The position numbers were made by a program, and so were the translations under genes. DNA of 64,000 bases, taken from contig NZ_JAAQPI010000010.1 of NCBI RefSeq assembly GCF_011683955.1, positions 186,001 through 250,000 on the forward strand, in the 5' to 3' direction. Source of the stretch: Pseudomaricurvus alkylphenolicus. GTDB lineage: Bacteria > Pseudomonadota > Gammaproteobacteria > Pseudomonadales > Cellvibrionaceae. This document shows positions 14,427 to 36,527 of this stretch, piece after piece. The stretch's first letter is position 1. The number at the start of each line of letters is the position of its first letter. The notes under the pieces are model-generated. The model made no database searches and was not told the DNA's origin. It worked only from the letters and a program-made list of their open reading frames with translations.

Positions 14427-16034
14427 GTGCGTAGAATCAAATCCAATATCAATACCAACTCCTCTGAGTTCAAGGAGTTCAAGCAACACAACCAGAGCCT
14501 GTTGGCCGAGTTTCATCGTCGCCAGGAAAAAGCCAGACACGAGCGCCCCCAGCGCGACCTTGATCGGCTGGCAAAGCAGAACAAGATGCTGCCCAGGGAG
14601 CGTCTGGAGTTACTGCTTGACCCGGGCACGCCGTTTCTGGAGTTCTCCTCGCTGGGTGCTTGCGAAGCCTACGACGGCGCCGCGCCAAGTGCCAACTGCA
14701 TCACCGGTATCGGTATTGTCGGTGGGCGTGAGGTGGTGATTAATGCCTCCGACAGTTCCAACAAAGGCGGCGCCTGGTTTCCACTGACGGCGAAGAAAAT
14801 TGTTCGTGCGCTGGATATCGCCATTGAGAACCGTCTGCCGGTGATTCATATGTGTGACAGCGCCGGTGGTTATCTGCCTTTGCAGTCCGACCTGTTCGGT
14901 GACAAGTACATGTCCGGTCGGATTTTTCGTAACCAGACTCAACTGTCCAAACTGGGCTGCAAGCAGCTGGCTCTGGTTTTCGGCCATTGTACAGCGGGCG
15001 GTGCCTATACCCCGGGTTTGTCTGACTACTCGGTGATCGTTAATGGCACTGGGGCGGTTTTTCTCGGCGGACCGCCTCTGGTGAAGGCGGCCACAGGCGA
15101 AGATGTCACCGTTGACGAATTGGGCGGAGCCCGCATGCACACCAGCGTTTCGGGAACCTGTGACTACTATGCGGATAATGAACGCGAAGCGATTGCCATC
15201 GGTCGGGAAGTGGTTTCCCAATGGGAGCAGCCGCAGAAATTTGCGCTGCAGCGGGAAGCGCCGGAAGATCCCTATTACGACCCCAGTGAACTCTACGGTA
15301 TTATTCCCAACGATATCAAAAAACAGTTTGATATTCGCGAGGTGATCGCACGTATTGTCGACGGCAGTCGTTTCGCTGAATATCAACCTGACTATGGCAC
15401 CACCATGGTGTGTGGCTTTGCCAATATCTGGGGCTACAAGGTGGGCATTCTGGGAAACAACGGCGTTCTGTTTAATGACAGTACACTCAAGGCCACGCAC
15501 TTTATGGCGCTGTGTAACCAGAACAATGTGCCACTGGTGTTTTTGCAAAATATCACCGGCTATATGATCGGTAAAGAATACGAACAGCGAGGCATCACCA
15601 AAGACGGTGCCAAGATGCTGATGGTGCAGGGGGGCGTGGACGTACCCAAGTTTACGGTAATGACCAACGGCTCCTTTGGTGCGGGTAACTACGGCATGTG
15701 CGGACGCTCCTGGGACGCACGCACCCTGTTCGCCTGGCCACAGAGTCAGATTGCGGTGATGGGATCGGATCAGGCGGCCAATACCCTGGTCACCATCAAG
15801 GTCAACCAGATGAAGCGCGAAGGCATTGAACCGACGCCTCAGGAGCTGGAAGAGATCCGGGCAGAGGTATTGCGTAACTACGAAAACTCCACCAGCGCCT
15901 ATGCCACCAGTTCCGAGATCTGGGATGACGGCATTATCGATCCGGTGGATACACGCAATGCGCTGGGTATGTCTATTTCGGCATCCCTTAACGCGCCCTT
16001 CGGCGGCACCCAATACGGCGTTATGCGCTACTGA
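14427..16034 (+). CDS. Acyl-CoA carboxylase carboxyltransferase (beta) subunit
   Basis: 535 residues, GTG start at 14427 with GAGG ten bases upstream. The two crotonase-like halves are present: DSAGGYLPLQ and HCTAGGAYTPGLSDY in the N half, VFLQNITGYMIGKEYE and GAGNYGMCGRSWDARTLFAWP in the C half. This is the methylcrotonyl/geranyl-CoA carboxylase type of beta subunit. It transfers CO2 from biotin to the gamma carbon of an unsaturated acyl-CoA. Whether the pocket fits methylcrotonyl-CoA or a longer isoprenoid acyl-CoA cannot be decided by eye; the AtuA neighbours favour the latter or a related branched substrate. Confidence 0.92.
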   Translation: MRRIKSNINTNSSEFKEFKQHNQSLLAEFHRRQEKARHERPQRDLDRLAKQNKMLPRERLELLLDPGTPFLEFSSLGACEAYDGAAPSANCITGIGIVGGREVVINASDSSNKGGAWFPLTAKKIVRALDIAIENRLPVIHMCDSAGGYLPLQSDLFGDKYMSGRIFRNQTQLSKLGCKQLALVFGHCTAGGAYTPGLSDYSVIVNGTGAVFLGGPPLVKAATGEDVTVDELGGARMHTSVSGTCDYYADNEREAIAIGREVVSQWEQPQKFALQREAPEDPYYDPSELYGIIPNDIKKQFDIREVIARIVDGSRFAEYQPDYGTTMVCGFANIWGYKVGILGNNGVLFNDSTLKATHFMALCNQNNVPLVFLQNITGYMIGKEYEQRGITKDGAKMLMVQGGVDVPKFTVMTNGSFGAGNYGMCGRSWDARTLFAWPQSQIAVMGSDQAANTLVTIKVNQMKREGIEPTPQELEEIRAEVLRNYENSTSAYATSSEIWDDGIIDPVDTRNALGMSISASLNAPFGGTQYGVMRY

Positions 16035-16052
16035 TTAACAGAGGACATCATC

Positions 16053-17219
16053 ATGACAGCGTTTACTCTAACATCCGAACAACAACAACTGATGGACCAC
16101 GCCGATCGGTTTGCCCGTGAGCAGCTGTTACCGCTGGCGGAGAAAATGGACAACGAAGAGTGGTGGCCCGAGGACGTTATGCCCCAGCTGGGCGAACTGG
16201 GCCTGCTGGGCATCACGATTCCCGAGCAATACGGCGGTACCGGTATGAGCATGATGGATGCGGGACTTATCCTGCAGGCCTTTTCCCGCTATAACCACGC
16301 CTTCGCCTTGTCCTGGGTGGCTCACGATAATCTCTGCGCCAACAATATTTACAACAACGGTAACGAAGCCATTCGGGAGAAGTACCTGCCGCGCCTCTGT
16401 TCCGGCGAATGGATTGGTTGTCTGGGTCTGACGGAACCCGGAGCTGGCTCCGATGCCCTGGGTTCCATGCGAACCCGTGCAGTTAAAGACGGCGACGAAT
16501 ACGTCATCAATGGTTCCAAAATTTATATTACCAATGGCCCCGTCGCTGACGTTTGTCTGTTGTACGCCAAAACCGAAATGGACAAGGGCTCAAAGGGTAT
16601 TACGGCGTTTGTGGTGGAAACCAATACACCTGGCTTTAAGGTGGCTCAAAAATTGGAGAAGATGGGTTTCCGAGGCAGCCAGACGGCGGAGTTGGTGTTT
16701 GAGGATATGCGAGTGCCGGCGGAAAATATCGTCGGTGTGTTGAATGAAGGTCACCAAGTCGTGATGAGTGGTTTGGATTTCGAACGCTCCATGATTTCAC
16801 CCATCAATTTGGGTATCGTAGAGCGCGCATTGGAATTGTCTGTGGAATTCGCCAAAACACGTCAGCAGTTTGGACAGCCCATTGCCAGTTTCCAGATGGT
16901 GCAGTCACGGCTTGCGGATATGTACGTCTGGAAGGAAACCATGCAAACCTATTGTTGGTCAGTTTTGTCCGAGGTGTCGGGGGTTGACGAAACCCAGGCG
17001 GGGCGTGGTGAAATTCATGCGAAAACGGCGGCTTCCGTGATGTATTGCGCCAACATGTGCAATCAGGTGTTGGATAACGCGGTGCAGGTGTTTGGCGGTA
17101 ACGGCTATATCTGGGAGTCGGAAATCAACCGCCTGTTCCGCTCAACCAAACTGTTGGAAATTGGTGCGGGTACCACTGAGGTTCGCAAGATGATTATCGC
17201 GGGTGAATTGCTCAAATAG
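16053..17219 (+). CDS. Acyl-CoA dehydrogenase, isovaleryl/citronellyl-CoA type
   Basis: 388 residues. LTEPGAGSDALGSM at about 126-139 and KIYITNG are the flavin signatures. The residue equivalent to the usual catalytic Glu of medium-chain enzymes is Ala372 (EIGAGTTEVR), while DFERS provides Glu244 in the position used as base by isovaleryl-CoA dehydrogenase. This points to branched-chain acyl-CoA oxidation, producing the 2,3-unsaturated substrate for the carboxylase encoded upstream. Translation starts 18 bases after the carboxyltransferase with AGAGGA ahead. Confidence 0.9.
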   Translation: MTAFTLTSEQQQLMDHADRFAREQLLPLAEKMDNEEWWPEDVMPQLGELGLLGITIPEQYGGTGMSMMDAGLILQAFSRYNHAFALSWVAHDNLCANNIYNNGNEAIREKYLPRLCSGEWIGCLGLTEPGAGSDALGSMRTRAVKDGDEYVINGSKIYITNGPVADVCLLYAKTEMDKGSKGITAFVVETNTPGFKVAQKLEKMGFRGSQTAELVFEDMRVPAENIVGVLNEGHQVVMSGLDFERSMISPINLGIVERALELSVEFAKTRQQFGQPIASFQMVQSRLADMYVWKETMQTYCWSVLSEVSGVDETQAGRGEIHAKTAASVMYCANMCNQVLDNAVQVFGGNGYIWESEINRLFRSTKLLEIGAGTTEVRKMIIAGELLK

Positions 17220-17231
17220 GAGTCACACTCT

Positions 17232-18089
17232 ATGAGCGAGATTCAGTTTACATATGGCATGAGTGATGCTGAGCTGGCTGAGGCCAAGACCATTTACGCT
17301 CAGGATTTGTTGAAAGGGCAGAGAGCGTTGATTACCGGGGGTGGCAGTGGCATCGGCTACGCCACCGCCTGGCTTTTTGCCCGCTTGGGTGCCACGGTTA
17401 TTCTGACCGGACGCAACGAGGACAAACTGCAAACCGCTGCGGCGACACTTCACGAGCATGGTCTCAGGGCGGAATATCAAACACTGGATATCCGCGAGCC
17501 TGAGACAATCGCCACGGTGATGGATCAAGTGTTTGCCGGTGGCGGTCTGGATATTCTTGTCAACAACGCGGGCGGCCAGTTTCCGAAATTGTCTATCGAC
17601 CTCAGCCCCAATGGTTGGGCATCGGTGATCAACAACAACCTCAATGGCACCTGGTTTATGATGCAGGCGGCAGCACAGCGCTGGCGAGATTCCGGTACAC
17701 CCGGCAATATCATCAATATGGTGGTGGTTACGGATGACAGTATGCACGGTATCGTCCATACCTGTGCGGCTCGAGCCGGTGTTATCAAGGCTTCTCAAAA
17801 AGCTTGCGTGGAATGGGCACCCTACGATATCCGCATCAATTGCGTAGCACCCGGAGTGACGGATTCTTCAGGCATGAAGGCCTATAGCGAAGAGGCGCGT
17901 AAGAAATTTCACTTGGCCAATCCCATGCAACGCGCGTGCAGCATTTGGGATATTGCCCAGGCGTGTGCGTACCTGGGGAGCGAGGCATCCAATTTCATTA
18001 CCGGAGAAGTGCTTCACCTCGATGGTGGTTCACGCCACTGGGGTGATCTCTGGACTTACCCGAAACCGGAATATTTCTCAAACCAATAG
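17232..18089 (+). CDS. Short-chain dehydrogenase/reductase, PECR/AtuG-like, atypical active site
   Basis: 285 residues. The Rossmann motif TGGGSGIG (35-42) and NNAG (111-114) are intact. The region HTCAARAGV followed by RINCVAPGV resembles peroxisomal trans-2-enoyl-CoA reductases and AtuG-like proteins. In those proteins the catalytic Tyr and Lys follow AARAGV; here the aligned positions read Ile185 and Gln189, so the usual YxxxK is not present in that register. It may be a reductase with a displaced active site or a binding protein. It starts 12 bases after the dehydrogenase gene and probably acts on an acyl-CoA intermediate of the same pathway. Confidence 0.82.
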   Translation: MSEIQFTYGMSDAELAEAKTIYAQDLLKGQRALITGGGSGIGYATAWLFARLGATVILTGRNEDKLQTAAATLHEHGLRAEYQTLDIREPETIATVMDQVFAGGGLDILVNNAGGQFPKLSIDLSPNGWASVINNNLNGTWFMMQAAAQRWRDSGTPGNIINMVVVTDDSMHGIVHTCAARAGVIKASQKACVEWAPYDIRINCVAPGVTDSSGMKAYSEEARKKFHLANPMQRACSIWDIAQACAYLGSEASNFITGEVLHLDGGSRHWGDLWTYPKPEYFSNQ

Positions 18090-18105
18090 ATAATAGGTGC
18101 CAGCC

Positions 18106-18897
18106 ATGGAGAACTTTAAACACACCCGCTATCGAGTTGAAAACGGGGTGGCGGAAATCACGTTATGTTCCGCCGATGGTTTAAACACTCAGTCGGTGGA
18201 GTCCGTTAAGGAATGGGTGGCAGCAGTAACCCGTGCCAACGAAGATGACGCTGTCGGAGCCATTCTATTCGCGGCCGAAGGCAAGGGCTTCAGTGCCGGT
18301 GGCAATATGGAGGAGCTCTTCCTGCCACGCAGCTCGGGGAAAATACCCTACGACAAGAACGACCCCTATACCGGTGGTATTAATCTAATGTCCACCGACT
18401 GGGTACAGATGCTGCGTCAGTCCAAGCCTATCGTAGTGGCGTTTAACGGCTTCGCCGTAGGTGGGGGCGTTACCCTGTTTTTACCGGCAGACGTTTTGGT
18501 GGCTTCACCTCGGGCCAGCTTTCACTTTTCGTTTGTAAAAGTGGGAATTGTTGCCGAAATCTGTTCGACCAAATACTTGCCAGCACGGGTGGGGTTCGGA
18601 CGTGCATCGGAGTTGTTACTGAGCGGGCGTCCGGTGGGCGGGCAGGAAGCGCACGACATTGGACTGGTGGACTATCTCTATCCCGAGGAATCACTGCTGG
18701 ATGAGGCCAGAAAGATCGCCGTGAATATCGCCGGCAATCCCGCTCCCATGTTGCGAATGACCAAAGCGTTGTTGGATCAAAACAGCCTTGAGACGCAGCT
18801 GGACAAGGTATGGGAACGAGAGTCCAACGCGTTGTGGCGTTGCTTTCATATGGAAGAACACAAGGCCGCAATCAAGTCATTTCTATCAGAAGACTAG
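18106..18897 (+). CDS. Enoyl-CoA hydratase/isomerase family protein, second in operon
   Basis: 263-residue crotonase: GFSAGGNMEEL near residue 65, FAVGGGVTLFLPADVLVAS, and SFVKVGIVAEICSTKYLP. It is distinct from the hydratase at 8867 and may act as an isomerase or a later hydratase of the pathway. The ATG at 18106 is preferred over the GTG at 18097 because an AATAGG stretch then has normal spacing. Last gene of the operon, followed by a strong inverted repeat. Confidence 0.83.
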   Translation: MENFKHTRYRVENGVAEITLCSADGLNTQSVESVKEWVAAVTRANEDDAVGAILFAAEGKGFSAGGNMEELFLPRSSGKIPYDKNDPYTGGINLMSTDWVQMLRQSKPIVVAFNGFAVGGGVTLFLPADVLVASPRASFHFSFVKVGIVAEICSTKYLPARVGFGRASELLLSGRPVGGQEAHDIGLVDYLYPEESLLDEARKIAVNIAGNPAPMLRMTKALLDQNSLETQLDKVWERESNALWRCFHMEEHKAAIKSFLSED

Positions 18898-19638: not shown

Positions 19639-19846
19639 AATATCGGCCTCGATTCTAGATACTGGGTTTTAGGTTCTGGATCTTGTAAACAACCTGCCAG
19701 AGCACGGATACCAAGGCTACGGGACCGATGTCCCGCGGGCGTCACGGATTTATCACAAAACTCTCACAATGTAGTTGCCTTTTTGTCACCCTGGGGTAAG
19801 CCATGTAGAATGCGTTGCGAACGGTCGCAGCGGCACTCACTTTTTT

Positions 19847-20554
19847 ATGCAAATACTCTTTGTCCTGGTCGAACCCGCGGTTCCGGAAAATATCGGCGCC
19901 AGTGCCCGGGCCCTTAAAACCATGGGCTTTGACCAGCTGCGTCTGGTCAATACCGAACAACATCAGCACAAACAGGCCCGTATCCTTGCCCATGGTTCTG
20001 GCGAGGTGTTGGAAAAGGCCGATTGTTTTGATTCCTTGCCAGAGGCATTGGCGGATGTGGATCTCTCTATCGCCACCACAGCCAAACCCCGTCATGGTTG
20101 GCGCGATCTGTTGTCGCCAGCTGAGGTCCGTGATGTGATTGCCAACAAGACCTCAGAAAAAGAGGGGGATGCACTCTCCAGGGTAGCTATCGTTTTTGGT
20201 TGTGAGGAGTCCGGGCTGAGCAATGAGCAATTGGAAGCCTGTGACCTCCTTACCGGTATTCCTATGGCGGTGGCTTATCCTTCCCTGAACCTGTCTCAGG
20301 CGGTGATGCTCTACGCCTATGAGCTGAGCCGGCTCAACCCCATCCTGAAGCCGTCCGGGGCCGTCCATGTTCAGGCCCAGGACGCTCAGTGGTTGGCGTT
20401 AAAGACCAAGCTGGAGCAGTTGCTGCCGGCTCTAACCTTCGAACCGGATTCGGCACTGTATCGATGGGCTACAGAGAAGCTGGGGCAGTTGAGTACTAAA
20501 GATATAGGCTTTTTGCACAGCCTTTGCGACAAGGTGTCAGAAAAGATCAAGTAG
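19847..20554 (+). CDS. lasT: RNA 2'-O-methyltransferase of the LasT/TrmJ (SpoU) family
   Basis: 235 residues. MQILFVLVEPAVPENIGA, ARALKTMGF and AHGSGEVLEKAD match E. coli LasT (YjtD) closely, and the knotted SPOUT cofactor site is visible as VFGCEESGLSNEQL and VAYPSLNLSQAVMLYAYEL. The likely action is S-adenosylmethionine-dependent 2'-O-methylation of tRNA or rRNA. The ATG at 19847 is used because longer versions add unrelated sequence. It precedes a small TPR gene and a predicted RNA kinase/nuclease fusion, which gives the neighbourhood an RNA-processing flavour. Confidence 0.85.
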   Translation: MQILFVLVEPAVPENIGASARALKTMGFDQLRLVNTEQHQHKQARILAHGSGEVLEKADCFDSLPEALADVDLSIATTAKPRHGWRDLLSPAEVRDVIANKTSEKEGDALSRVAIVFGCEESGLSNEQLEACDLLTGIPMAVAYPSLNLSQAVMLYAYELSRLNPILKPSGAVHVQAQDAQWLALKTKLEQLLPALTFEPDSALYRWATEKLGQLSTKDIGFLHSLCDKVSEKIK

Positions 20555-21082: not shown

Positions 21083-23068
21083 ATGAGAGCCATGGATATT
21101 GAAGGGTCTTTTCAAGACTATTGCCCCGAAACGCTGCTGACCTGGCTCAGTGGTCACACAACCGCAACCTTGTTGCTGTATGGGGAGTCAGGCGCAGGCA
21201 AATCGACTCTGGCCGAGACCCTGGGGCAAAGGCTGTGGCAACAGGGGCAGAGCAGCTACTGCCTCAGTGGTGACCCCGGCTCGCCGGCGTTCGGGCCTCC
21301 GGGAGTGGTCAGCCTGGGGCTTCGCCAGTCACAGGGCTGGCGTCTGCAGGCATTTGAGCCGCTTTGCAGCCTCGATGCTGTTCGTTACCGTTTGCCTCTG
21401 CTCAGTGCCATTACCCGACTATTGCGGCATCATCGGCGACACGCCATTCCCCTGATTATTGATGCACCCGGTGTGGTCGCCGGTGCGGCCGGTGAAGAGC
21501 TGCTTGGCGCTCTGTTGGACTGCGCGACCGTGGATCGTGTCTGCTATCTCAGTGCCAAACCCGAAGCGCGAATTCTCGCCACCTTGAAAGCCAATGCCCA
21601 TAACGTAATTGTGGATTCCATGACATCTGCCGTGACCGCGGTACGCGTCAATAAGCCAGAGAGAGCCCGATGCCGGAGTTTAAGCTGGCAGAACTATATG
21701 GAGGGTGCGCAGGAGCAGCAACTGGTGTTGCCCAACCCTACGCTCCTGGGGATGGCCGCTGGTCTGCCGGACGACGATTGGAGTGGTCGGCAATGCGCGC
21801 TCTATGCCGGTAAAACGCTATTGTCCATGGGCACGGTGCACCGACGACGACAAGAGCGTTGGACAGTGATGGTGAAGCATAGCGAAAACCTGGAGCAGGT
21901 CGACGCAATACTGGTACGTGACGCGGTTGTCTCCCCCCAGGGTAAGTTGCACACCCGGCATGTGGACAATAGGGTACTTCCATTAACCAGGCCGCGGATA
22001 CACTCTGTGGCGCGAGCATACAACCCAGCCAATCCCCGCGCAGGGGAGCCTCTCTGTGCCCATTTATCCACGGTGACCGCGACCATGGTCAACGGTGTAT
22101 TCGGGGATCCGCTGTTGCATTTGCAGCTGCATAATCGCAAACGACATTTACTGTTTGATCTCGGCGAAACGGGGCGATTGCCGACTCGGGTGATTCACCA
22201 GACCACCGATATCTGCATCAGTCATGCTCACGCTGATCATATTGGAGGCTTCCTGTGGTTGTTGCGGTCGAGAATCGGCTATTACCCCTGTTGTCGGATA
22301 TTTGGTCCCAGGGGGATTGCCCGCAAAATCCTGGGGTTGGTGAATGCCTTTCTATGGGATCGGGTGGAGGACCGGGGGCCTCAGTTTGAGATAAACGAAT
22401 TCCATGGCGACCATTTGCAGCGTTGTCTGGTTAGAGCCGGTGTTGAAACCATGGAAGCGCTGCCCGAAAAACCAGTGAAGGGGCAGATCATTTTGCGTCA
22501 ACGGGATTTTGTCATCAAAGCCGTACAGCTTGATCACGGGGTTGCAGTGGGGGCGACGGAGCCGACACCGGTACTGGCCTACGCAGTGGAAATGGCACCG
22601 CGGTTTCATATTTGCAAGGATAAACTGGCTCGCTACCACGAGGCTCCAGGCCCCTGGCTACAGGCCCTAAAGGCCGGACTGGAGCAAGGTGATAAAGAGG
22701 CACTGATATCGCTGCCTGGCGGGCGCCCCGAAACGGTGGAAACATTGTCGAAGAATCTGTTGGTGGCGGGGCCGGGTGAAAAAATTGTGTATGCCACGGA
22801 TCTGGCGGACCATGGGGGCAACCGCGCCGCACTGATTGATCTCGCCCGTTCAGCCGACTTACTGTTTTGCGAGGCCCCTTACCGGTTGAAGGACATTGAA
22901 TTGGCCAAGGCCAATGGACACCTGAGTACGGTGGCCTGTGCGCAAATTGCCCGCGAGGCACAGGTAAAACAGCTGATGCCGTTCCACTTTTCCAAGCGCT
23001 ATGAAAATAGACCGGAATCCGTGTATCGGGAAATCGAGTCCCCACCTATCAACCGCATTGCTGAATAA
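21083..23068 (+). CDS. Fusion of a Clp1/Grc3-type polynucleotide kinase domain to an RNase Z-type metallo-beta-lactamase
   Basis: 661 residues in one uninterrupted frame. Residues about 25-200 form a P-loop kinase domain: Walker A GESGAGKST at 34-42 and LIIDAPGVVAG at 124-134, the latter resembling the DTPGW.G segment of Clp1/Grc3/NOL9 RNA 5'-hydroxyl kinases. Residues about 325-655 form an RNase Z-like metallo-beta-lactamase: FDLGETGRLP (358-367), the zinc motif HAHADH (381-386), ATD (571-573), GHLS (612-615), and the tRNase Z hallmark PFHFSKRY (633-640). Prediction: cleaves an RNA and phosphorylates a 5'-OH end, or repairs RNA ends. Either ATG (21083 or 21092) could start it; neither has a clear ribosome binding site. 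Its 3' end overlaps the convergent HD-GYP-like gene by 20 bases. Confidence 0.85.
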   Translation: MRAMDIEGSFQDYCPETLLTWLSGHTTATLLLYGESGAGKSTLAETLGQRLWQQGQSSYCLSGDPGSPAFGPPGVVSLGLRQSQGWRLQAFEPLCSLDAVRYRLPLLSAITRLLRHHRRHAIPLIIDAPGVVAGAAGEELLGALLDCATVDRVCYLSAKPEARILATLKANAHNVIVDSMTSAVTAVRVNKPERARCRSLSWQNYMEGAQEQQLVLPNPTLLGMAAGLPDDDWSGRQCALYAGKTLLSMGTVHRRRQERWTVMVKHSENLEQVDAILVRDAVVSPQGKLHTRHVDNRVLPLTRPRIHSVARAYNPANPRAGEPLCAHLSTVTATMVNGVFGDPLLHLQLHNRKRHLLFDLGETGRLPTRVIHQTTDICISHAHADHIGGFLWLLRSRIGYYPCCRIFGPRGIARKILGLVNAFLWDRVEDRGPQFEINEFHGDHLQRCLVRAGVETMEALPEKPVKGQIILRQRDFVIKAVQLDHGVAVGATEPTPVLAYAVEMAPRFHICKDKLARYHEAPGPWLQALKAGLEQGDKEALISLPGGRPETVETLSKNLLVAGPGEKIVYATDLADHGGNRAALIDLARSADLLFCEAPYRLKDIELAKANGHLSTVACAQIAREAQVKQLMPFHFSKRYENRPESVYREIESPPINRIAE

Positions 23069-29711: not shown

Positions 29712-30177
29712 TAGAATTTCCTCTCGATGTGCACGACATTATTTTTTATATGCGGGTCTGTTTACTCCTCACCGGCTCTCACCCCGGCGGGCTGGATGCA
29801 GCTCACAAAAACATCTACGTCACAGAAAAACAGCCAGCCGCAAGCTTAATGCACACAGGACAATTCTGACTACCGGGGCGGAATCGGTCATTTTCTTGGT
29901 CATTTCTGATGCTTGACATTCATGAACTTTACAACTTTCCACGAATAATGCGGTCTGTGGCGACATCGGCTTAGGGGTAAACCGGCATAAACAGTGGAAA
30001 AAAACCGGTTTTTATGATCATAAGTAATTCTTGAGTCTTATATATAATCCAAAATAGTCTAATGACTATTGGGTCGCAGAAAGATTTTTTTAACCGTTTA
30101 AGTTGAACGCTCTGGACGCTTGTCCCAGATACTCGATTCGGGGTATAACAACGCAAATTTTTTATCGGGAGCGCTGT
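29712..30177. promoter_or_regulatory. Divergent promoter region between TonB receptor 2 and the secreted hydrolase
   Basis: 466 bases with no gene that I can support. It contains two perfect palindromes: AAAAACCGGTTTTT (30000-30013) and AATAGTC-TAAT-GACTATT (30053-30070). The second is 108 bases upstream of the hydrolase start and looks like an operator. No regulator gene is adjacent. Confidence 0.4.
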
Positions 30178-31077
30178 ATGAATTTCCTTCCACGGTTTCA
30201 GATTTTGCTTTCTACCCTGGCGGCGTTTGCGGCGTTGCTCACCTTCAGCACAGCCAGCCTGGCGGGCATTCGGGACTTGTCACCTGAGGTGATCGAGGCC
30301 AATGGCGTAAAGCTGGCGATGGTTGAGATTGGCGATCCCCAGGGGGAGCCGGTATTGATGATTATGGGGCTTGGCAGTTCCTACCGCTTATGGGGGGAGA
30401 AATTACCCCAGGGATTGGCGGACGCGGGTTACCGGGTGATTCTATTTGATAACCGCGATGTAGGTGCTTCTCAGCGTATGGATCATTTGGGTGACCCGGT
30501 ACTCTGGTGGCAATTGCTAAAGAATAATCTCGGCTTTGGGGTAAATGCGGTATACAGCTTGAGCGACATGGCCGAGGATGCGGCGGCGCTGTTGGATCAT
30601 CTTGAGATTGAGCGGGCGCATGTAGTGGGTGCCTCTATGGGCGGAATGATTGCTCAGGTGCTGGCAGTGGAGCAACCTCAACGGGTGAAGAGTCTGGTGT
30701 CGATTATGTCCACCAGTGGTGCGGAGCATTTGCCCGAACCCACGCCTGAGGCTCAAAAGAGTCTCGAAAATGCCACCTTTACCAGTGAAGAGGAACTGAC
30801 GGCGGTTAATGAGCGGGGGTTTTATCCGCAGGGGGTTCCGCGGCAGATTCTTGCAGTATTGGACGCCGGTGATCGCTCGGCTGCTATCAAGGCAATTCGT
30901 GCACCGACTTTAGTGATTCACGGTCGCGATGATGGCCTTCTGCCGCTGGCTCATGGTGAGCATACGGCCAGGTTGATTCCCAACGCGCGTATGGAGGTGA
31001 TTGAGGGGATGGCTCATAACCTGCCTCTGGAGGTTGTACCGCAGTTGGTCGGGCATATGGTTGGGCATTGGCAGTAG
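30178..31077 (+). CDS. Secreted alpha/beta hydrolase
   Basis: 299 residues. Signal peptide at about 1-30 (ILLSTLAAFAALLTFSTASLA). The catalytic triad can be placed: nucleophile Ser in GASMGG, acid in HGRDDGLLP, and His in GMAHNLP. The oxyanion-hole region reads MIMGLGSS. The ATG at 30178 with GGGAG upstream is preferred over a 75-base-longer frame that lacks a signal peptide. Probable esterase, lactonase or similar acting in the periplasm; divergent from a TonB receptor, it might process that receptor's cargo. Confidence 0.85.
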   Translation: MNFLPRFQILLSTLAAFAALLTFSTASLAGIRDLSPEVIEANGVKLAMVEIGDPQGEPVLMIMGLGSSYRLWGEKLPQGLADAGYRVILFDNRDVGASQRMDHLGDPVLWWQLLKNNLGFGVNAVYSLSDMAEDAAALLDHLEIERAHVVGASMGGMIAQVLAVEQPQRVKSLVSIMSTSGAEHLPEPTPEAQKSLENATFTSEEELTAVNERGFYPQGVPRQILAVLDAGDRSAAIKAIRAPTLVIHGRDDGLLPLAHGEHTARLIPNARMEVIEGMAHNLPLEVVPQLVGHMVGHWQ

Positions 31078-31139
31078 CTCAGGTACGCTGAGTTGGGACC
31101 GCACGGCTGCCGGCAGTGAATCCATAGGAGGAAACCTTC

Positions 31140-32873
31140 CTAACCTTCTCTCAACATATGTGTCATTAAGGCGCGCAGCTTTCCTGGTTTAAGGGGTTTG
31201 TTCAATACAGGAAACCCCAATTGTTTGAATAATCCCAGGCTGTGGCTGCTGCGATCTGCGGTGATGATGGCGGCCGGGATTTGTTGGCCGAAATTGAGCC
31301 GCAGTCCGTTGATGGCTGCGATACCGAGCTTGTCGTCGTCGAGGTGGTAGTCGGCCAAAATGATCTCGGGCATTTGCGTTTGGCAGCGTTGTTTGGCGTC
31401 GTCCTCGCCGGCGGCGGTGATAACGTTGCAACCCCAACGGCTGAGCAGCGCGTCCATACTGACGCGAATATTTTCGTCGTTGTCGATAACGAGTATGCGC
31501 CGGCCTTCAAGTTGGTTGGAGGTGAAGGCGGGGGTGGGCTCAGCAGTTTCGTTCTGGGGGGCTTGTTCCGCTACGGGGACTTCGATGGCGAACATGGAGC
31601 CGCGGCCTTGTTTTGAGCGCAGTTCGAGTTGGTGGTCGAGTACCTTGGCCATGCGTTCCACAATGGCGAGGCCCAGACCCACGCCGTGTCGGTTTTTGCC
31701 TTTGTGTTGGTCGAGTTGGTGAAATTCCCGAAAGATGTCTTGTTGTTGATTTTCGGGAATGCCATCGCCGGTGTCCCAGACTTGGATGCTGAGGTTATCG
31801 CCCCGCTGCCGGCAGCCGACCAGTACGCGGCCGTCATGGGTGTAGCGGATGGCATTGCTGATAAAGTTGCGCAGGATTCTGAGTAGCAAGCGGGAGTCGC
31901 TGCGCACGGCCAGTCGCGTGGGCACGGCTCGAAGGTCGAGGCCTTTGTTGTCGGCCACCGGCTGGAATTCGCTGATCATGGCGTGCAGTGGCTGGCTGAG
32001 GTCGAATTCGGTGATTACCGGTGTGACGGCATTTTGGTCGAGTCGGGATATGTCCAGCAGGTCGGCCAACAGGTCTTCTGCGTTTTCCATCGCCATGTGT
32101 ATGCGCTCGACCAGGTGGGATTCCTGATCGGCGAGCTGTCGTTCGCGCAAGGTAGAGATCAGCAGGCGTGCGGCGTTCATGGGTTGCAGCAGGTCGTGAC
32201 TGGCGGCGGCCAGGTATTTGTCTTTGCTGTTGTTGGCGTCTTCGGCGGCTTCTTTGGCGATTTTGAGCTGTTGCTGGATCTGTTCCCGCTCGGTGATTTC
32301 CTGGCGTAATTGGGTGTTGAGGTTTTCCAGTTCTTTGGTGCGCAGGGCGACCCGCTCTTCGAGTTCTTCGTTAAGCCGTTGCAGTTTTTCCTGAGCCAGT
32401 ACTCGTTCGGTAATGTCCTGTACAAATATTTCTATCACCCTTTGTCCGTTTTCTTCTTTGAGCAGGGCGTTCATGGAGACATAGATGTTGTTGCCGTCAC
32501 GGCGGCGAAAGCGGGTGATGTAACCAAATACATGGCCCTGGTCGAGCAGCGTAGTGCGGAATTCTGCGTAGCTTTCGGGGTTTACAAACAGGTGTTCGCC
32601 GATGTCGGTGACTTCCAGATAAAGCTGTGAGGCGCTAAGGTAGCCGCAGATGTGCACTATGGCGGGGTTTGCCACGAGTATGCCGCCATCGAGCTGTGCC
32701 TGGAAGATGCCGTGCAGGGCATTTTCGAACAACCATTTGTAGCGATTGCGTTCTTGTTCGAGTTCGTCGAGTTTGGCGCTAAGTTCGGGGTAGTAGTTTT
32801 TTCGGGCCGAGTGGTTGCCCAGGCCGATCAGGCTTTCTACGGTGAGGTCGGCTTTGTTAGAGGGCTTCTTCAT
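31140..32873 (-). CDS. PAS-containing hybrid histidine kinase, NahK/ErcS'-like
   Basis: 577 residues. PAS domain about 45-155 (YKWLFENALHGIFQAQ to IFVQDITERV), a long coiled coil 158-215, then the phosphoacceptor helix SHDLLQPMNAARLL with His226, an ATPase domain (NFISNAIRYT, DTGDGIPENQQQ, GVGLGLAIV) and a C-terminal receiver domain with VIDNDE and phospho-acceptor Asp at about 508 (LADYHLD). The HDLLQPMNA H-box is the type found in NahK and ErcS'. The gene overlaps the ErcA-like alcohol dehydrogenase gene by 17 bases in the same direction, as in loci that control ethanol oxidation, so a related regulatory role is likely. Confidence 0.85.
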   Translation of the reverse strand: MKKPSNKADLTVESLIGLGNHSARKNYYPELSAKLDELEQERNRYKWLFENALHGIFQAQLDGGILVANPAIVHICGYLSASQLYLEVTDIGEHLFVNPESYAEFRTTLLDQGHVFGYITRFRRRDGNNIYVSMNALLKEENGQRVIEIFVQDITERVLAQEKLQRLNEELEERVALRTKELENLNTQLRQEITEREQIQQQLKIAKEAAEDANNSKDKYLAAASHDLLQPMNAARLLISTLRERQLADQESHLVERIHMAMENAEDLLADLLDISRLDQNAVTPVITEFDLSQPLHAMISEFQPVADNKGLDLRAVPTRLAVRSDSRLLLRILRNFISNAIRYTHDGRVLVGCRQRGDNLSIQVWDTGDGIPENQQQDIFREFHQLDQHKGKNRHGVGLGLAIVERMAKVLDHQLELRSKQGRGSMFAIEVPVAEQAPQNETAEPTPAFTSNQLEGRRILVIDNDENIRVSMDALLSRWGCNVITAAGEDDAKQRCQTQMPEIILADYHLDDDKLGIAAINGLRLNFGQQIPAAIITADRSSHSLGLFKQLGFPVLNKPLKPGKLRALMTHMLREG

Positions 32874-34020
32874 ACACGGTTTCTACGTCGCGTTTGTTGG
32901 ACTGGCGCGGGTTGGTAAGGATACAGGGGTCTTGCAGGGCGTGGTGGGAGAGCATGGGAATGTCGCTCACACTGACGCCGTTTTCACCCAGTTTTTGCGT
33001 GAGGCTGACTTGTTGTTTCAGTCCAATCACTTGCTCGATCAGTCGTTTTTGTATGTCTTTGGGTGTCATGCCGCGGGTGTCGATGTCCAGTGCTTCGGCC
33101 ACGGCACGAAAGCGTTCGGGCGCTTCCGGGTAGTTGTAGGCGATGACGTGTTCGAGCAGGATGGCGTTGCAGAGACCGTGGGGCAAGTCCAGGTAGCCGC
33201 CCAGACTGTGGGCCATGGCGTGCACAGCGCCGAGGATGGCGTTGGAGAAGGCCAGTCCGGCTTTCATGGAGCCGAGCATGATTTTTTCGCGCAGTTGTAT
33301 GTTTCCGGGGTCGGCCACCAGGTCGGCAATGTTGGTGTTGATGAGGCGCATAGCATCGAGGGCGTGCATGTCGGTCAGTGGTCCGGCGCCGGTGGAGACG
33401 AAAGCCTCAATGGCGTGGACCATGGCGTCTATGCCGGTGCAGGCGCTCAGGAACGGGTCCATGGTCATCGTCGTTTCGGGGTCGATGAGTGCGACGTCGG
33501 GCACCACGGCTTTGCTGATGATGGAGAATTTGACCCGTTCTTCGGGGTTGGAGACGATGACGAACTGTGAGACGTCTGCGGAGGTTCCCGCGGTTGTGGG
33601 TATGAAGATGAGCGGCGGGATGGGGATGTGTATGGTGTCGACGCCTTCATAGTCGAGGATGCTGCCACCGTTGGCGTGGATGATGCCGATGCCTTTGGCG
33701 CAGTCCATGGGGCTGCCGCCGCCCACGGCGACGATGACGTTGCAGCCTTGTTCGCGGTAGAGGTCTGCCCCTTGCATGATTTCGCTGGCTCTGGGGTTGG
33801 GGGAGACGTTGGTGTAGGTGACGTAGTCGATGTCTTCTTCGGCGAGGTGGTTTTCGATGTCGCTGAGCCAGCCTGCCTTGGCGACGCCAGGGTCGGAGAC
33901 GAGCAGGACTTTGCGGGCACCGAAGGTGTGGGCGTAGTTGGCGACGGTTTTGCGGGCGCCGGCGCCGAAGATGATTTCGGGGGAGACAAATTTTCTTAGG
34001 TTTGAGATGTCAGTGCTCAT
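32857..34020 (-). CDS. ercA: Iron-containing alcohol dehydrogenase, ErcA-like
   Basis: 387 residues. Group III iron-dependent alcohol dehydrogenase: NAD-binding GGGSPMDCAKG at about 96-106, PTTAGTSADVS, and the metal-binding HAMAHSLGG and LPHGLCNAILL. It opens with ISNLRKFVSPEIIFGAGAR, typical of ErcA. It oxidises alcohols or reduces aldehydes; in pseudomonads ErcA has a regulatory role in ethanol oxidation together with an ErcS-type kinase. Its stop overlaps the start of the hybrid kinase downstream, supporting a two-gene unit. Confidence 0.88.
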   Translation of the reverse strand: MSTDISNLRKFVSPEIIFGAGARKTVANYAHTFGARKVLLVSDPGVAKAGWLSDIENHLAEEDIDYVTYTNVSPNPRASEIMQGADLYREQGCNVIVAVGGGSPMDCAKGIGIIHANGGSILDYEGVDTIHIPIPPLIFIPTTAGTSADVSQFVIVSNPEERVKFSIISKAVVPDVALIDPETTMTMDPFLSACTGIDAMVHAIEAFVSTGAGPLTDMHALDAMRLINTNIADLVADPGNIQLREKIMLGSMKAGLAFSNAILGAVHAMAHSLGGYLDLPHGLCNAILLEHVIAYNYPEAPERFRAVAEALDIDTRGMTPKDIQKRLIEQVIGLKQQVSLTQKLGENGVSVSDIPMLSHHALQDPCILTNPRQSNKRDVETVYEEAL

Positions 34021-34141
34021 GGTTGTCTCTTGCGTTGTTATTTTGTGCTGTAGGGAAGTTTAACCCAGGGTGGGGTGGGGCCCAAATCAGACCAAAGGAG
34101 GAGGTGTGCTGGCAAGGTGCCAGGGTCGGATTTCCCGGATT

Positions 34142-34293
34142 TTGAGTTGGGTTTCCTGAGACGTATCGGCTGGTTCTTTGTTTTCTTAGCTTGGAGTTGG
34201 GTACCTCAATCTGCGGCGGCCTGGCCCCTTTGTTTTCTGGGCTTGGAGTTGGGTGCCCCAAGTCGCGTCGGCTGGGGGTTCCGTTTTCAGAGC
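34142..34293. repeat. Three imperfect ~50-base tandem repeats
   Basis: The core TTGGAGTTGGGT (first copy TTGAGTTGGGT) recurs at 34142, 34191 and 34243, each followed by a CGGC/TGG and TTTTC segment, giving a period of about 50 bases. The 566-base gap 34021-34586 between ercA and the phosphatase gene holds this block, the inverted repeat 34269-34407 and the REP-like element at 34490. Reading frames across it translate to repetitive Trp/Phe-rich sequence and look spurious. Confidence 0.65.
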
Positions 34294-34407
34294 GGTCGGG
34301 CGGCCCTCCGGCCTTCCCTCAGTCGCCAAAAAGCCCGGCAAAACACGCCGGTCTTTTTGGCTCTTTCGGCGCCCTCTTTGATGCTCTGAAAACGAAACCC
34401 CCAGCCG
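34269..34407. repeat. Large nested inverted repeat (cruciform-like)
   Basis: The 25-base arm at 34269-34293 (starts CGGCTGGGGGTT, ends TTTTCAGAGC) is repeated inverted at 34383-34407 with one mismatch. Inside, GCCAAAAAG (34325-34333) pairs with CTTTTTGGC (34353-34361) and the adjoining CCGGC/GCCGG extends that stem. Transcribed, it would make a long two-tier hairpin. It could be a mobile repeat element or the end of a miniature element; no transposase or clear target duplication was found. Confidence 0.65.
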
Positions 34408-34489
34408 CCGCTCACACCGAGGTTTGCTGAGTTGTCTGCCTCAAGGAATGAAACGACTGACCTCTGTTTATGGATTTGTAGATTCGTAG

Positions 34490-34521
34490 GGCGGAATAGC
34501 CGCAAAGCGGCGTAATCCGCC
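34490..34521. repeat. REP-like palindrome
   Basis: GGCGGA (34490-34495) mirrors TCCGCC (34516-34521), with inner GCCGC-AAA-GCGGC. The motif GTAGGGCGGAATAGCCGC is a common intergenic REP-type sequence in gammaproteobacteria. Confidence 0.65.
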
Positions 34522-34586
34522 GGTTCCTCCGATTCTGTAGGCCCCCTCCTATCGATTCTGGCCACTTATGACTTTTTAGAGGGTGG

Positions 34587-36527
34587 TTATTTGCCTCTCG
34601 GCGGAAATACGGTCTCTGTCCCATCACCATGTAACAGGCTGATCTGTGCAGGTTCGCCAATATCGTTGAGCTTTAAAACCCCCAATCCGGAGCGATTCAC
34701 CAGTCTCAACGGCGCATAGTTGCTGGGTTTGCGCGAGCGGATGGAGAGACGACGACGTTTGGTAAACCAATTCAGTGGCGATCTGCGGCTATAGAGAAAG
34801 CGGTCAAATCGGTCAAACCAGCGGATCAGCGTTGCCGGAAACTCGTTTTTGATGCCGCTGGCGGTGATTTGCCAAATTTCCCGATCGCGCAGTATCTGCG
34901 CGCTTTTGTTGCTCTGTGGCAGGCGTTTTTTGCGGCGGATGCTGACGTCGTAGACGAAGGAGTAGTGGACGTCTCCGGAGAGGATGATGAGGTTTTGGGG
35001 GGCTTTGATGTGCATAAACATGTTAAGCAGCACGTTGGCGGCGCCCGGGTGGGCCATCCAGTTTTCGGCGTCCACCATGAGCGGGCGGCCGAAGAAGGTG
35101 AAGATGCGCTGGATGACTTCGATCAGTTTGACGCCGAATACGGGCGCTGCGGAAACCAGAATGACCGATTCCTGATGAATAATATGTTGCTGTAGGTCGC
35201 TGAGGGATTCCCAGTCCATCAGTCCCGAGGGTTTGTCCGGATTGCTTTCTGAGCGCCAGCGGTGGGTGCGGGTGTCCATGACGACGATGGGTGGGGTTGT
35301 GGGCAGGCTGTAGTGCCATTGGTTGTGGTGCAGGAGTTCGTCGATCAGTTGGCTGTGGGCATCGTCGGTCCAGTCTTGGTCGCAGGGACGGAACAGGTCA
35401 AACCAGGGTTCCGGGGTGGCTTCTGGTCGGTTGCCCCAGCCCTGGCAGAGCCAGTAGCCTAGCAGGGCGTTGCCGAGGATGCGGCGGGAGAAGGGGTGCT
35501 GGTAGGCGGCTTCTTCCCAGCCTCGGGTCAGGTTCCAGTCGTCGGTGATGTCGTGGTCGTCGAAGATCATACAGACGGGGATGTTGGCCAGTGCTCGCTG
35601 TACTTGGGGGAGTCCGTCACGAAAGCGTTCGATTTCGGTTTGTTCTTTCTGGTAGCGCTGGCGGAAGTCTTCGTCGACCCGCTGGTTGTCGAAGCTAATA
35701 AAGGCCCAGAGCTGAGGTGACCAGACCAGCAGGTACATGGCAAATACTTCTGCGGCACTGACCAGGTGGTTGTGGGCGGCAATGCTGGTGAAGATGGGTT
35801 TGCGCGCACCTTTGAACAGTTGGTTGAACGGTGAGGGTGTGTCGCTGCACAGGGGCAGCAGTTGTTCGCGGTGATAGAAGGTGTAGGCGTGTTGGTAGAG
35901 TGCCTCGGTATCGTCGACGATGGCGCCCTGCAGTTTTTCAGGGAAGAGTCCCAGTAGTTTGATCACTTGGAAGATAGCGTCCAGCATGGGCCCGGCGACG
36001 TCGTCGCAGTAGATCTGGTCGCCGCTCATCAGTAGCAGTGAGGGGCGTTGGTTCGGGTCGCCGGCGGTTTCTCGCAGCAGGCTTTCGGCCCGGGTCAGGG
36101 CATCAGGGCCGGCATAGTGGGGTTTGCGGCAGGAGCCGTGCAGGATCTGGCGGCTGCGGCTCGGGATAAAGAAACTGGGGCGCGGCCCGTCATCGAGCCC
36201 CAGTGGTATCAGTGACGATAGCGCTCTTTCTTGCGAGTCACCTTCGGTTTTCAGCCATAGCTCATAGTGGATCGACTGGTCTTCGGGGATGTCGGCCGAT
36301 ACGCTGATCAGCTGTATATAGCCTCTTTCTCCAATAGCAATCTGTCTTTGTTGATCCGGGCAGGTTAGTGATTGCTCAAAAATGGGCGTTTGCCCCGCTT
36401 GCAGCTGTAATCGACAGTTGACTGCTTGGGTGGTTGCCAGCCAGAGCGTAAATCGCTCTTTGTCGCAACGACGCAGGATGGGGCCGGCAATGATCAGAGG
36501 TAGCTCGTTCACCTGGGAAGCTGACAC
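34587..36527 (-). CDS. PhoD-like metallophosphatase/phosphodiesterase family protein
   Basis: 646 residues without a signal peptide, so probably cytoplasmic. The PhoD-type metal motifs are spaced as expected: LLMSGDQIYCDD at about 163-174, FDDHDITDDWN at about 318-328, and LSGDVHYSF at about 537-545. The N-terminal 130 residues form a beta-rich domain and the basic C-terminal tail (FTKRRRLSIRSRKPS) is unusual. Family members hydrolyse phosphomono- or diesters with metal cofactors. Divergent from the class III aminotransferase gene. Confidence 0.85.
   Translation of the reverse strand: MSASQVNELPLIIAGPILRRCDKERFTLWLATTQAVNCRLQLQAGQTPIFEQSLTCPDQQRQIAIGERGYIQLISVSADIPEDQSIHYELWLKTEGDSQERALSSLIPLGLDDGPRPSFFIPSRSRQILHGSCRKPHYAGPDALTRAESLLRETAGDPNQRPSLLLMSGDQIYCDDVAGPMLDAIFQVIKLLGLFPEKLQGAIVDDTEALYQHAYTFYHREQLLPLCSDTPSPFNQLFKGARKPIFTSIAAHNHLVSAAEVFAMYLLVWSPQLWAFISFDNQRVDEDFRQRYQKEQTEIERFRDGLPQVQRALANIPVCMIFDDHDITDDWNLTRGWEEAAYQHPFSRRILGNALLGYWLCQGWGNRPEATPEPWFDLFRPCDQDWTDDAHSQLIDELLHHNQWHYSLPTTPPIVVMDTRTHRWRSESNPDKPSGLMDWESLSDLQQHIIHQESVILVSAAPVFGVKLIEVIQRIFTFFGRPLMVDAENWMAHPGAANVLLNMFMHIKAPQNLIILSGDVHYSFVYDVSIRRKKRLPQSNKSAQILRDREIWQITASGIKNEFPATLIRWFDRFDRFLYSRRSPLNWFTKRRRLSIRSRKPSNYAPLRLVNRSGLGVLKLNDIGEPAQISLLHGDGTETVFPPRGK

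Follow-up and report, generated by a model that had tools for sequence, protein, structure and literature searches.

A conserved bacterial fusion of a Clp1/Grc3-like P-loop domain and an RNase Z-type nuclease as a candidate RNA end-processing enzyme

What a bacterium would gain from a single protein in which a Clp1/Grc3-like P-loop domain is joined to an RNase Z-like nuclease domain is the question raised by a gene of Pseudomaricurvus alkylphenolicus, located in a stretch of 64,000 nucleotides (contig NZ_JAAQPI010000010.1, positions 186,001 to 250,000, forward strand; referred to as the window) and described in a first-pass annotation as encoding a polynucleotide kinase fused to a nuclease. 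Comparative analysis revealed that this fusion is a conserved protein and no accident of one genome, and it may be a single-chain RNA end-processing enzyme, both halves of which would act on the ends of already broken RNA. Clp1-family kinases are reported to be very rare in bacteria; here, a conserved bacterial group has this kinase-type domain tied to a tRNase Z-type nuclease. If the fusion acts on broken tRNA, it would connect RNA repair in bacteria with a eukaryote-like pairing of kinase and nuclease, and simple cells could then be used to test how Clp1 and RtcB interact.

Conservation and distribution of the fusion

The fused frame is real: it is a single open frame of 661 codons on the forward strand, with an ATG at 21083 or at 21092 as the candidate start, its product contains all of the motifs GESGAGKST, IIDAPGVVAG, HAHADH, ATD and HFSKRY, and both halves score above Pfam cut-offs, the first with CLP1_P (residues 34-208, 60.5 bits, cut-off 26.6) and the second with Lactamase_B_2 (37 bits, cut-off 27). 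The gene is present as a single copy in its own genome.

The architecture recurs in other genomes, where the first-pass annotation had suggested looking for it. The best 80 of 147 relatives from a scan of named genomes were kept as loci; they match about residues 30-653 (L130 only to 576), and both motifs were found in one frame in 78 of the 80. These 78 together with the window sequence form the alignment of 79 fusions used below, from which L112 and L130, having no single frame with both motifs, were left out. Named relatives occur in Methylobacter, Nitrosomonas, Marinobacter, Halomonas/Billgrantia, Nitrococcus and Thiodiazotropha, and further ones in metagenome-assembled genomes labelled Zetaproteobacteria, Deltaproteobacteria, Desulfobacteraceae and Nitrospinota. 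Among 15 close pairs, one of them identical, the rate of nonsynonymous substitution (dN) was below that of synonymous substitution (dS) in both halves of all 14 non-identical pairs, dN/dS ranging over about 0.19-0.51 for the kinase half and about 0.11-0.26 for the nuclease half.

Regarding distribution, a class sample of 274 genomes and a phylum sample of 398 genomes were searched. Matches at an expect value (E) of 1e-3 were detected in 46 genomes of the class sample: nine, the own genome included, match along both halves (41-44% identity in the other eight), 14 have a clear match to the nuclease half, and the remaining matches are short and to general P-loop or metallo-beta-lactamase (MBL) proteins. 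The 14 include three with fragments at contig ends (G062, G021 and G138) and G172, which has a separate match to the kinase half. CLP1_P scored above its cut-off in 17 of the 274 genomes, comprising the nine fusions (some partial to the model), three standalone copies with whole-model matches (G172, and G121 and G236 of one genus) and five P-loop-only matches; all three genomes with a standalone kinase also hold an unfused PRK02126-like nuclease, in one case directly adjacent. In the phylum sample, CLP1_P was detected at E 1e-6 in four genomes, all four of them with fusions and the own genome among them, and PRK02126-like matches at E 1e-15 in 15. Four of the 15 are partial, and in one, G349, the frame is truncated by the contig end and retains the last part of a kinase domain. 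P-loop-only matches aside, every genome with the kinase-type domain in these samples also has the nuclease (12 of 12 class genomes and 4 of 4 phylum genomes), and not vice versa.

In G172, kinase and nuclease are linked a second time, by separate adjacent genes: the Clp1-type gene (L047, 8153-9091) lies directly before the nuclease gene (L047, 9171-10226), and the nuclease groups with the unfused nucleases in a tree of nuclease halves. That tree, which carries a long-branch warning, was built from 16 of the 79 alignment rows, 12 other fusions, 14 unfused nucleases, two unfused nucleases with a remote Clp1, the split-pair nuclease and four canonical RNase Z, with L050 dropped; all 28 fusion nuclease halves fall on one side of a branch (98/92), apart from the 17 unfused and the four canonical sequences. 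For L045, a kinase encoded upstream of its unfused nuclease was considered and rejected, the open reading frame (ORF) being without a Pfam match and apparently spurious. A viral origin and a defence system were likewise considered and rejected: alignment-derived patterns matched 49 viral-contig stretches, none of them a relative, and PADLOC gave just two weak P-loop matches for the fusion protein.

Residues and predicted fold of the two halves

The published motifs of Clp1 are a Walker A GxxxxGK[S/T], a Walker B [D/E]hhQ, a clasp [T/S/L]xGW and a lid RxxxxR, as given in a survey of the family (PMC6777427). The Walker A consensus is present in all 79 fusions, in which G34, G37, G39 and K40 are invariant and position 41 is Ser (56) or Thr (23). 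The Walker B aspartate D64 is also found in all 79, and the glutamine position is occupied by Ser in 51, Leu in 15 and Met in 4; similarly, D127, P129 and G130 of the clasp-like region are invariant, and the tryptophan position is Val in 65 and Leu in 8. Two lid-like arginines, R198 (79 of 79) and R194 (78 of 79), are spaced by three residues, compared with four in the published lid, and G66, P68 and W202 are further invariant residues of this half. The three standalone Clp1-type copies retain DVGQ or DIGQ, have Leu in place of the clasp tryptophan and carry Asn at the position of D127. The Clp1/Grc3-like character proposed for the P-loop half is strong on the whole, as regards the CLP1_P score, Walker A and the match of the predicted fold to Clp1, and falls short at the Walker B glutamine and the clasp tryptophan; because these two residues are missing, 5'-OH kinase activity of the fusion appears plausible rather than assured.

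The nuclease half scores 235.9 bits against the NCBIfam ribonuclease Z subfamily PRK02126 (cut-off 315) and 90.3 bits (E 1e-25) against the RNase_Z equivalog (cut-off 292.95). Falling short of the two cut-offs, it is by these profile scores close to, yet outside, the curated RNase Z families. The tRNase Z signature that had been noted in it was borne out and extended by the alignment: the residues of motifs I-V (D359, H381/H383/D385/H386, H485, D573 and H635) and those of the HEAT and HST loops (E597 and H613), elements described in PMC2942849, are invariant in all 79 fusions, and motifs III and IV are separated by a flexible arm with a GP motif (G523 in 79, P524 in 77), likewise described there. 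For human ELAC2 the arm is reported to recognise the elbow of tRNA, and one tRNA is no longer processed when the arm is deleted (PMC11996679). No RNase_Z match above the equivalog cut-off was detected in the own genome or in the eight other fusion genomes searched. The idea that the fusion substitutes for a missing canonical RNase Z was set aside as uninformative, since RNase_Z matches at E 1e-40 were found in just 7 of the 274 class genomes. As for a second RNase Z in the own genome, also rejected, the two genes viewed among the other RNase_Z matches there (L162 and L163) have N-termini that by eye resemble signal or lipoprotein peptides.

An AlphaFold2 model built from the 79-row alignment had a predicted local distance difference test score (pLDDT) of 90.1 and a predicted template modelling score (pTM) of 0.70, with confidence below 50 at residues 295-304 and 309-315 of the linker, so that the relative placing of the two halves is unsure. 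The top Foldseek match of this predicted model in the PDB was RNase Z with tRNA(Thr) (2fk6, E 1.3e-17, template modelling score (TM) 0.71 by target), 4gcw also matching the nuclease half, while the other half matched human Clp1 in the TSEN/pre-tRNA complex (8hmy, E 3.7e-13, target-normalised TM 0.62) and worm Clp1 with RNA (4oi0, E 1.2e-12, target-normalised TM 0.59), with Grc3 ranking next. Both predicted folds are thus matched by tRNA-processing proteins. A sequence-profile search of the PDB recovered the same families, with E 2.7e-24 for RNase Z 1y44 and about 2e-7 for both Grc3 and worm Clp1, together with many generic P-loop matches, some of which (repetitive chains, e.g., midasin) outscored Clp1; with a kinase-only profile, generic P-loops of repetitive proteins dominated, and Clp1 and Grc3 stood lower down.

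Table 1. Features of the fusion gene and of the two genes 5' of it; positions are those of the window.
Feature	Residues	Position	Strand	Basis
Fusion gene, Clp1-like kinase-type domain and RNase Z-like nuclease domain	661 aa	21083..23068	+	ORF, profiles, model
CLP1_P P-loop domain	34-208	21182..21706	+	Pfam PF16575, E 2.6e-16; Foldseek to human/worm Clp1
Walker A GESGAGKS	34-41	21182..21205	+	Alignment of 79 fusions
Walker B-like DPGSP; D64 kept, consensus Gln substituted	64-68	21272..21286	+	Alignment
Clasp-like region LIIDAPGV; consensus Trp substituted	124-131	21452..21475	+	Alignment
Lid-like R194-x3-R198	194-198	21662..21676	+	Alignment
Beta-rich middle region	209-294	21707..21964	+	Model secondary structure and confidence
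Linker with low model confidence	295-315	21965..22027	+	AlphaFold2 model
RNase Z-type metallo-beta-lactamase domain	330-655	22070..23047	+	PRK02126 E 6e-70, below cut-off; Foldseek 2fk6, 4gcw
Metal motif HAHADH (H381, H383, D385, H386)		22223..22240	+	Four residues invariant, 79/79
Flexible-arm region, GP-type motif PGPWLxxLK	about 507-560	22601..22762	+	Aligned to RNase Z 1y44
Motif V HFSKRY	635-640	22985..23002	+	H635, F636, S637, R639 invariant, 79/79
TPR-like protein, 5' of fusion gene; absent as neighbour from other loci	100 aa	20724..21026	+	Pfam, neighbour comparison
LasT, TrmJ-family RNA methyltransferase, 5' of fusion gene; not a conserved neighbour		19775..20554	+	NCBIfam

Neighbouring genes and the occurrence of RtcA and RtcB

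Some relatives have neighbours that are informative, namely RtcA, RtcB and a THUMP-like protein. RtcA is encoded near the fusion and on the same strand in four of the 80 loci: 60 nt downstream in L051, about 40 nt upstream in L061, where it passes the RtcA equivalog cut-off, about 360 nt upstream in L062, and upstream in L075 with a THUMP protein between the two. The fusions of L062 and L075 are 86% identical, and since these loci are close relatives the adjacency represents about three events. RtcB-family genes are located upstream of the fusion in two of the 80 loci, at about 0.9 kb in L066, with an opposite-strand nitroreductase in between, and at about 2 kb in L087, where PolX lies in between and abuts the fusion; both are below the NCBIfam cut-offs. 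The two genes (L066 5559-7076 and L087 4345-5967) match the C-terminal part of the intein-containing RtcB model NF038162, also below its cut-off. The THUMP protein of L075 scores 24.4 bits (cut-off 20.6). Like it, related proteins of L093 and L035, the latter lying outside the 80, are encoded upstream of the fusion in the same orientation; these two have no Pfam THUMP match. A Prim-Pol gene separates the THUMP-like gene from the fusion in L035, and a metallophosphoesterase is encoded directly downstream of the fusion in L093.

Regarding the occurrence of these genes in whole genomes, 51 fusion genomes were chosen, of which 41 belong to the 80 named loci and the remaining 10 come from a set of 13 further fusion genomes. 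At E 1e-10, RtcA was detected in 22 of these 51 (two partial) and RtcB in 38; among 117 other genomes of the class the figures are 7 for RtcA and 34 for RtcB (Fisher test, relatedness ignored, p 3e-8 for RtcA and 7e-8 for RtcB). Within a class sample of 124 genomes, RtcA is present in 10, three of them fusion genomes, and RtcB in 39, five of them fusion genomes (Fisher p 0.011 for RtcA and 0.031 for RtcB, taking seven fusion genomes with G067 assumed among the unlisted).

Families of neighbours were counted from 227 ORFs of 61 of the 80 loci, leaving out 12 Halomonadaceae loci and seven copies or near copies; ORFs above 650 residues were cut to the first 600, the families are the 25 commonest of each batch, and the choice of ORFs is error-prone in high-GC genomes. 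No neighbour is conserved across the group: apart from those in Halomonadaceae, clusters within 1.5 kb comprised at most four loci. The nearest-neighbour families listed include the broad Methyltransf_25 (five members, in two batches), Radical_SAM (four), RtcA, nitroreductase and PGA_cap (three each), among which RtcA is notable for its specificity and not for its count; the RtcA of L061 is additional to these three, as that locus was not part of the set.

The genes upstream in the window are as first described: LasT scores 268.4 bits with the PRK10433 equivalog (cut-off 212), and the short TPR-like protein has a top Pfam score of 25.6, below the cut-off of 30.1. They failed as a clue to function: no homologue of the TPR-like protein and one weak match to LasT were found among ORFs of the other loci, and a conserved local operon containing them was rejected.

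Several neighbours are shared with unfused nucleases. DUF6763 lies directly upstream of the fusion in two loci (L034 9239-9547 and L074 7584-7889) and of an unfused nuclease in another (L046 6050-6577). A short PEP-utiliser of about 424 residues, resembling the C-terminal part of PtsI (L031 5403-6674 and L043 2885-4162), adjoins RtcA and the fusion in one genome and an unfused nuclease in another. Among neighbours of the CapA family (PGA_cap), some copies by eye start with an export signal and others do not.

Possible functions of the fusion protein

As a single-chain processing enzyme for broken RNA, the fusion would use its N-terminal Clp1/Grc3-like domain for ATP-dependent phosphorylation of the 5'-OH ends of broken, probably tRNA-like RNA, while the C-terminal tRNase Z-type domain, judged from its motifs and fold, would grip a tRNA-like substrate by the flexible arm and cut on the 3' side to leave a 3'-OH. 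Fragments with 5'-OH and 2',3'-cyclic-phosphate ends would thereby be converted into fragments with 5'-phosphate and 3'-OH ends, which may be diverted from RtcB-type ligation to decay, maturation or classical ligation. The RtcA, RtcB and THUMP-like neighbours of relatives point to such a role in RNA repair.

The coupling of cleavage with 5'-OH phosphorylation of the enzyme's own product, as envisaged in the first-pass annotation, is not supported. tRNase Z is reported to leave a hydroxyl on the tRNA 3' end (PMC3714273); therefore, by chemistry, the other product should carry a 5'-phosphate and need no kinase. A role for the kinase would thus require 5'-OH ends that other nucleases produce, such as the ends of broken tRNAs. 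The 5' fragments of broken tRNAs can end in a 2',3'-cyclic phosphate, and such ends are described as no substrates of PNPase and as requiring prior conversion to 3'-OH (PMC7790460). It is possible, though doubtful, that this one polypeptide is a healing enzyme providing a second route for broken tRNA in competition with RtcB, converting 5'-OH to 5'-phosphate and 3' cyclic phosphate to 3'-OH. With the same reserve, such a route would parallel the balance of CLP1 and RTCB in animals, in which phosphorylation by CLP1 is reported to remove the RTCB substrate (PMC13247085).

Compared with known systems, the fusion resembles the 5'-OH kinases Clp1, Nol9 and Grc3, including Ts-Clp1 of Thermus scotoductus, in CLP1_P, predicted fold, Walker A, the Walker B aspartate and the lid-like arginines, and differs from them in the mostly Ser or Leu residue at the Walker B glutamine, the mostly Val residue at the clasp tryptophan and the fused nuclease. 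It likewise resembles tRNase Z/RNase BN (ElaC) and PRK02126 in the residues of motifs I-V, the HEAT and HST loops, the GP-type flexible arm and the predicted fold, and differs from them in scores below the RNase_Z and PRK02126 cut-offs and in the fused kinase-type domain; from the four canonical RNase Z it is separate in the tree, over long branches. The Grc3-Las1 and Clp1-TSEN complexes, whose Grc3 and Clp1 are among the fold matches, also pair a Clp1-family protein with an RNA endonuclease, but as separate subunits and with other nuclease folds, whereas the fusion is one bacterial polypeptide with an MBL nuclease. An RtcA or RtcB-family gene near the fusion in six of the 80 loci recalls the RtcBA operon; in contrast to that system, a Clp1-type kinase would remove and not make the RtcB substrate. 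Enzymes of the T4 Pnkp and yeast Trl1 type combine a 5' kinase and a 3'-end activity in one polypeptide, a likeness in logic only, as their domains are other ones. According to the Clp1 survey, the kinase of Trl1 is not significantly similar to Clp1, and Clp1 searches did not recover T4 PNK; the survey found Clp1 in 14 of the 1,543 complete genomes of bacteria that it covered, and neither 'lactamase' nor 'RNase Z' occurs in its main text (PMC6777427). Consistent with the earlier statement that no experimental description of this protein type was known, no description of this fusion was found among the matches listed in open-licence literature; both families are known, and the conserved fusion and its repair neighbourhood are, as far as seen, new.

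Several observations weigh against the processing of broken RNA. The fusions depart from the Walker B consensus and from the clasp consensus of Clp1. In the samples, PRK02126-like genes without a fused kinase occur no less often than the fusion (14 versus 9 of the 274 class genomes), so the nuclease does not need the kinase. No RtcA or RtcB was found in the examined flanks of 74 of the 80 loci, some flanks being cut by contig ends, and because the own genome has neither at E 1e-10 the link to RNA repair is an inference from relatives; the frequencies of both genes are uncorrected for genome relatedness, and the 51 fusion genomes include several of Methylobacter and Nitrosomonas. A CapA-family gene, with no evident RNA role, is as frequent as the RtcA and RtcB loci, lying within 2 kb of the fusion in six of the 80 (L065, L077, L078, L085, L090 and L095); in L173, L175 and L176 it adjoins an unfused nuclease, and its orientation varies. 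Genes for a PEP-utiliser, a GCS2-like and an AstE-like protein neighbour some relatives, fused or unfused, which leaves room for a metabolic role.

Three alternatives were weighed against the processing of broken RNA ends. One, considered unlikely, is turnover of 5'-OH RNA, in which the 5'-phosphate made by the kinase would license the fusion's own nuclease, or another RNase dependent on a 5'-phosphate, to degrade the fragment. Grc3 prepares rRNA ends for a 5'-3' exonuclease and offers an analogy; the presence of Grc3 among the fold matches and the constant company of a nuclease with the Clp1-type domain would fit. On the other side, the nuclease is of the RNase Z type with a flexible arm and not of the beta-CASP/RNase J type, and we know of no 5'-phosphate dependence of RNase Z. 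Equally improbable is a regulated tRNase Z for the 3' maturation of tRNAs or tRNA-like RNAs, its P-loop domain lacking kinase activity and serving as a module that binds ATP for regulation or grips the RNA. The loss of the Walker B glutamine and clasp tryptophan, the aspartate D127 where standalone copies have Asn, the flexible arm, and the nine fusion genomes searched, own included, without an RNase_Z above the equivalog cut-off would agree with this; Walker A, D64 and the two lid arginines are, however, invariant or nearly so, the kinase half is under purifying selection, and the lack of a canonical RNase Z is ordinary in the class and calls for no substitute. A substrate that is neither tRNA nor broken RNA, in which case an MBL phosphodiesterase paired with a matching kinase would act on a nucleotide, an AMPylated protein or some other metabolite, is very unlikely: the CapA-family, PEP-utiliser, GCS2-like and AstE-like neighbours, the scores below the RNase Z cut-offs and a report of RNase Z as deAMPylase (PMC12663964) speak for it, and the invariant tRNase Z catalytic residues, the flexible arm and the Rtc and THUMP-like neighbours of some loci against it.

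Two further observations concern other parts of the window. A run of genes at 14427-18897, named by eye as carboxyltransferase, acyl-CoA dehydrogenase, SDR and enoyl-CoA hydratase, has the appearance of a cluster for the breakdown of branched-chain compounds or fatty acids. The stretch 30001-36000 differs from most of the window in its strong skews, 0.17-0.21 for GC and -0.15 to -0.26 for AT.

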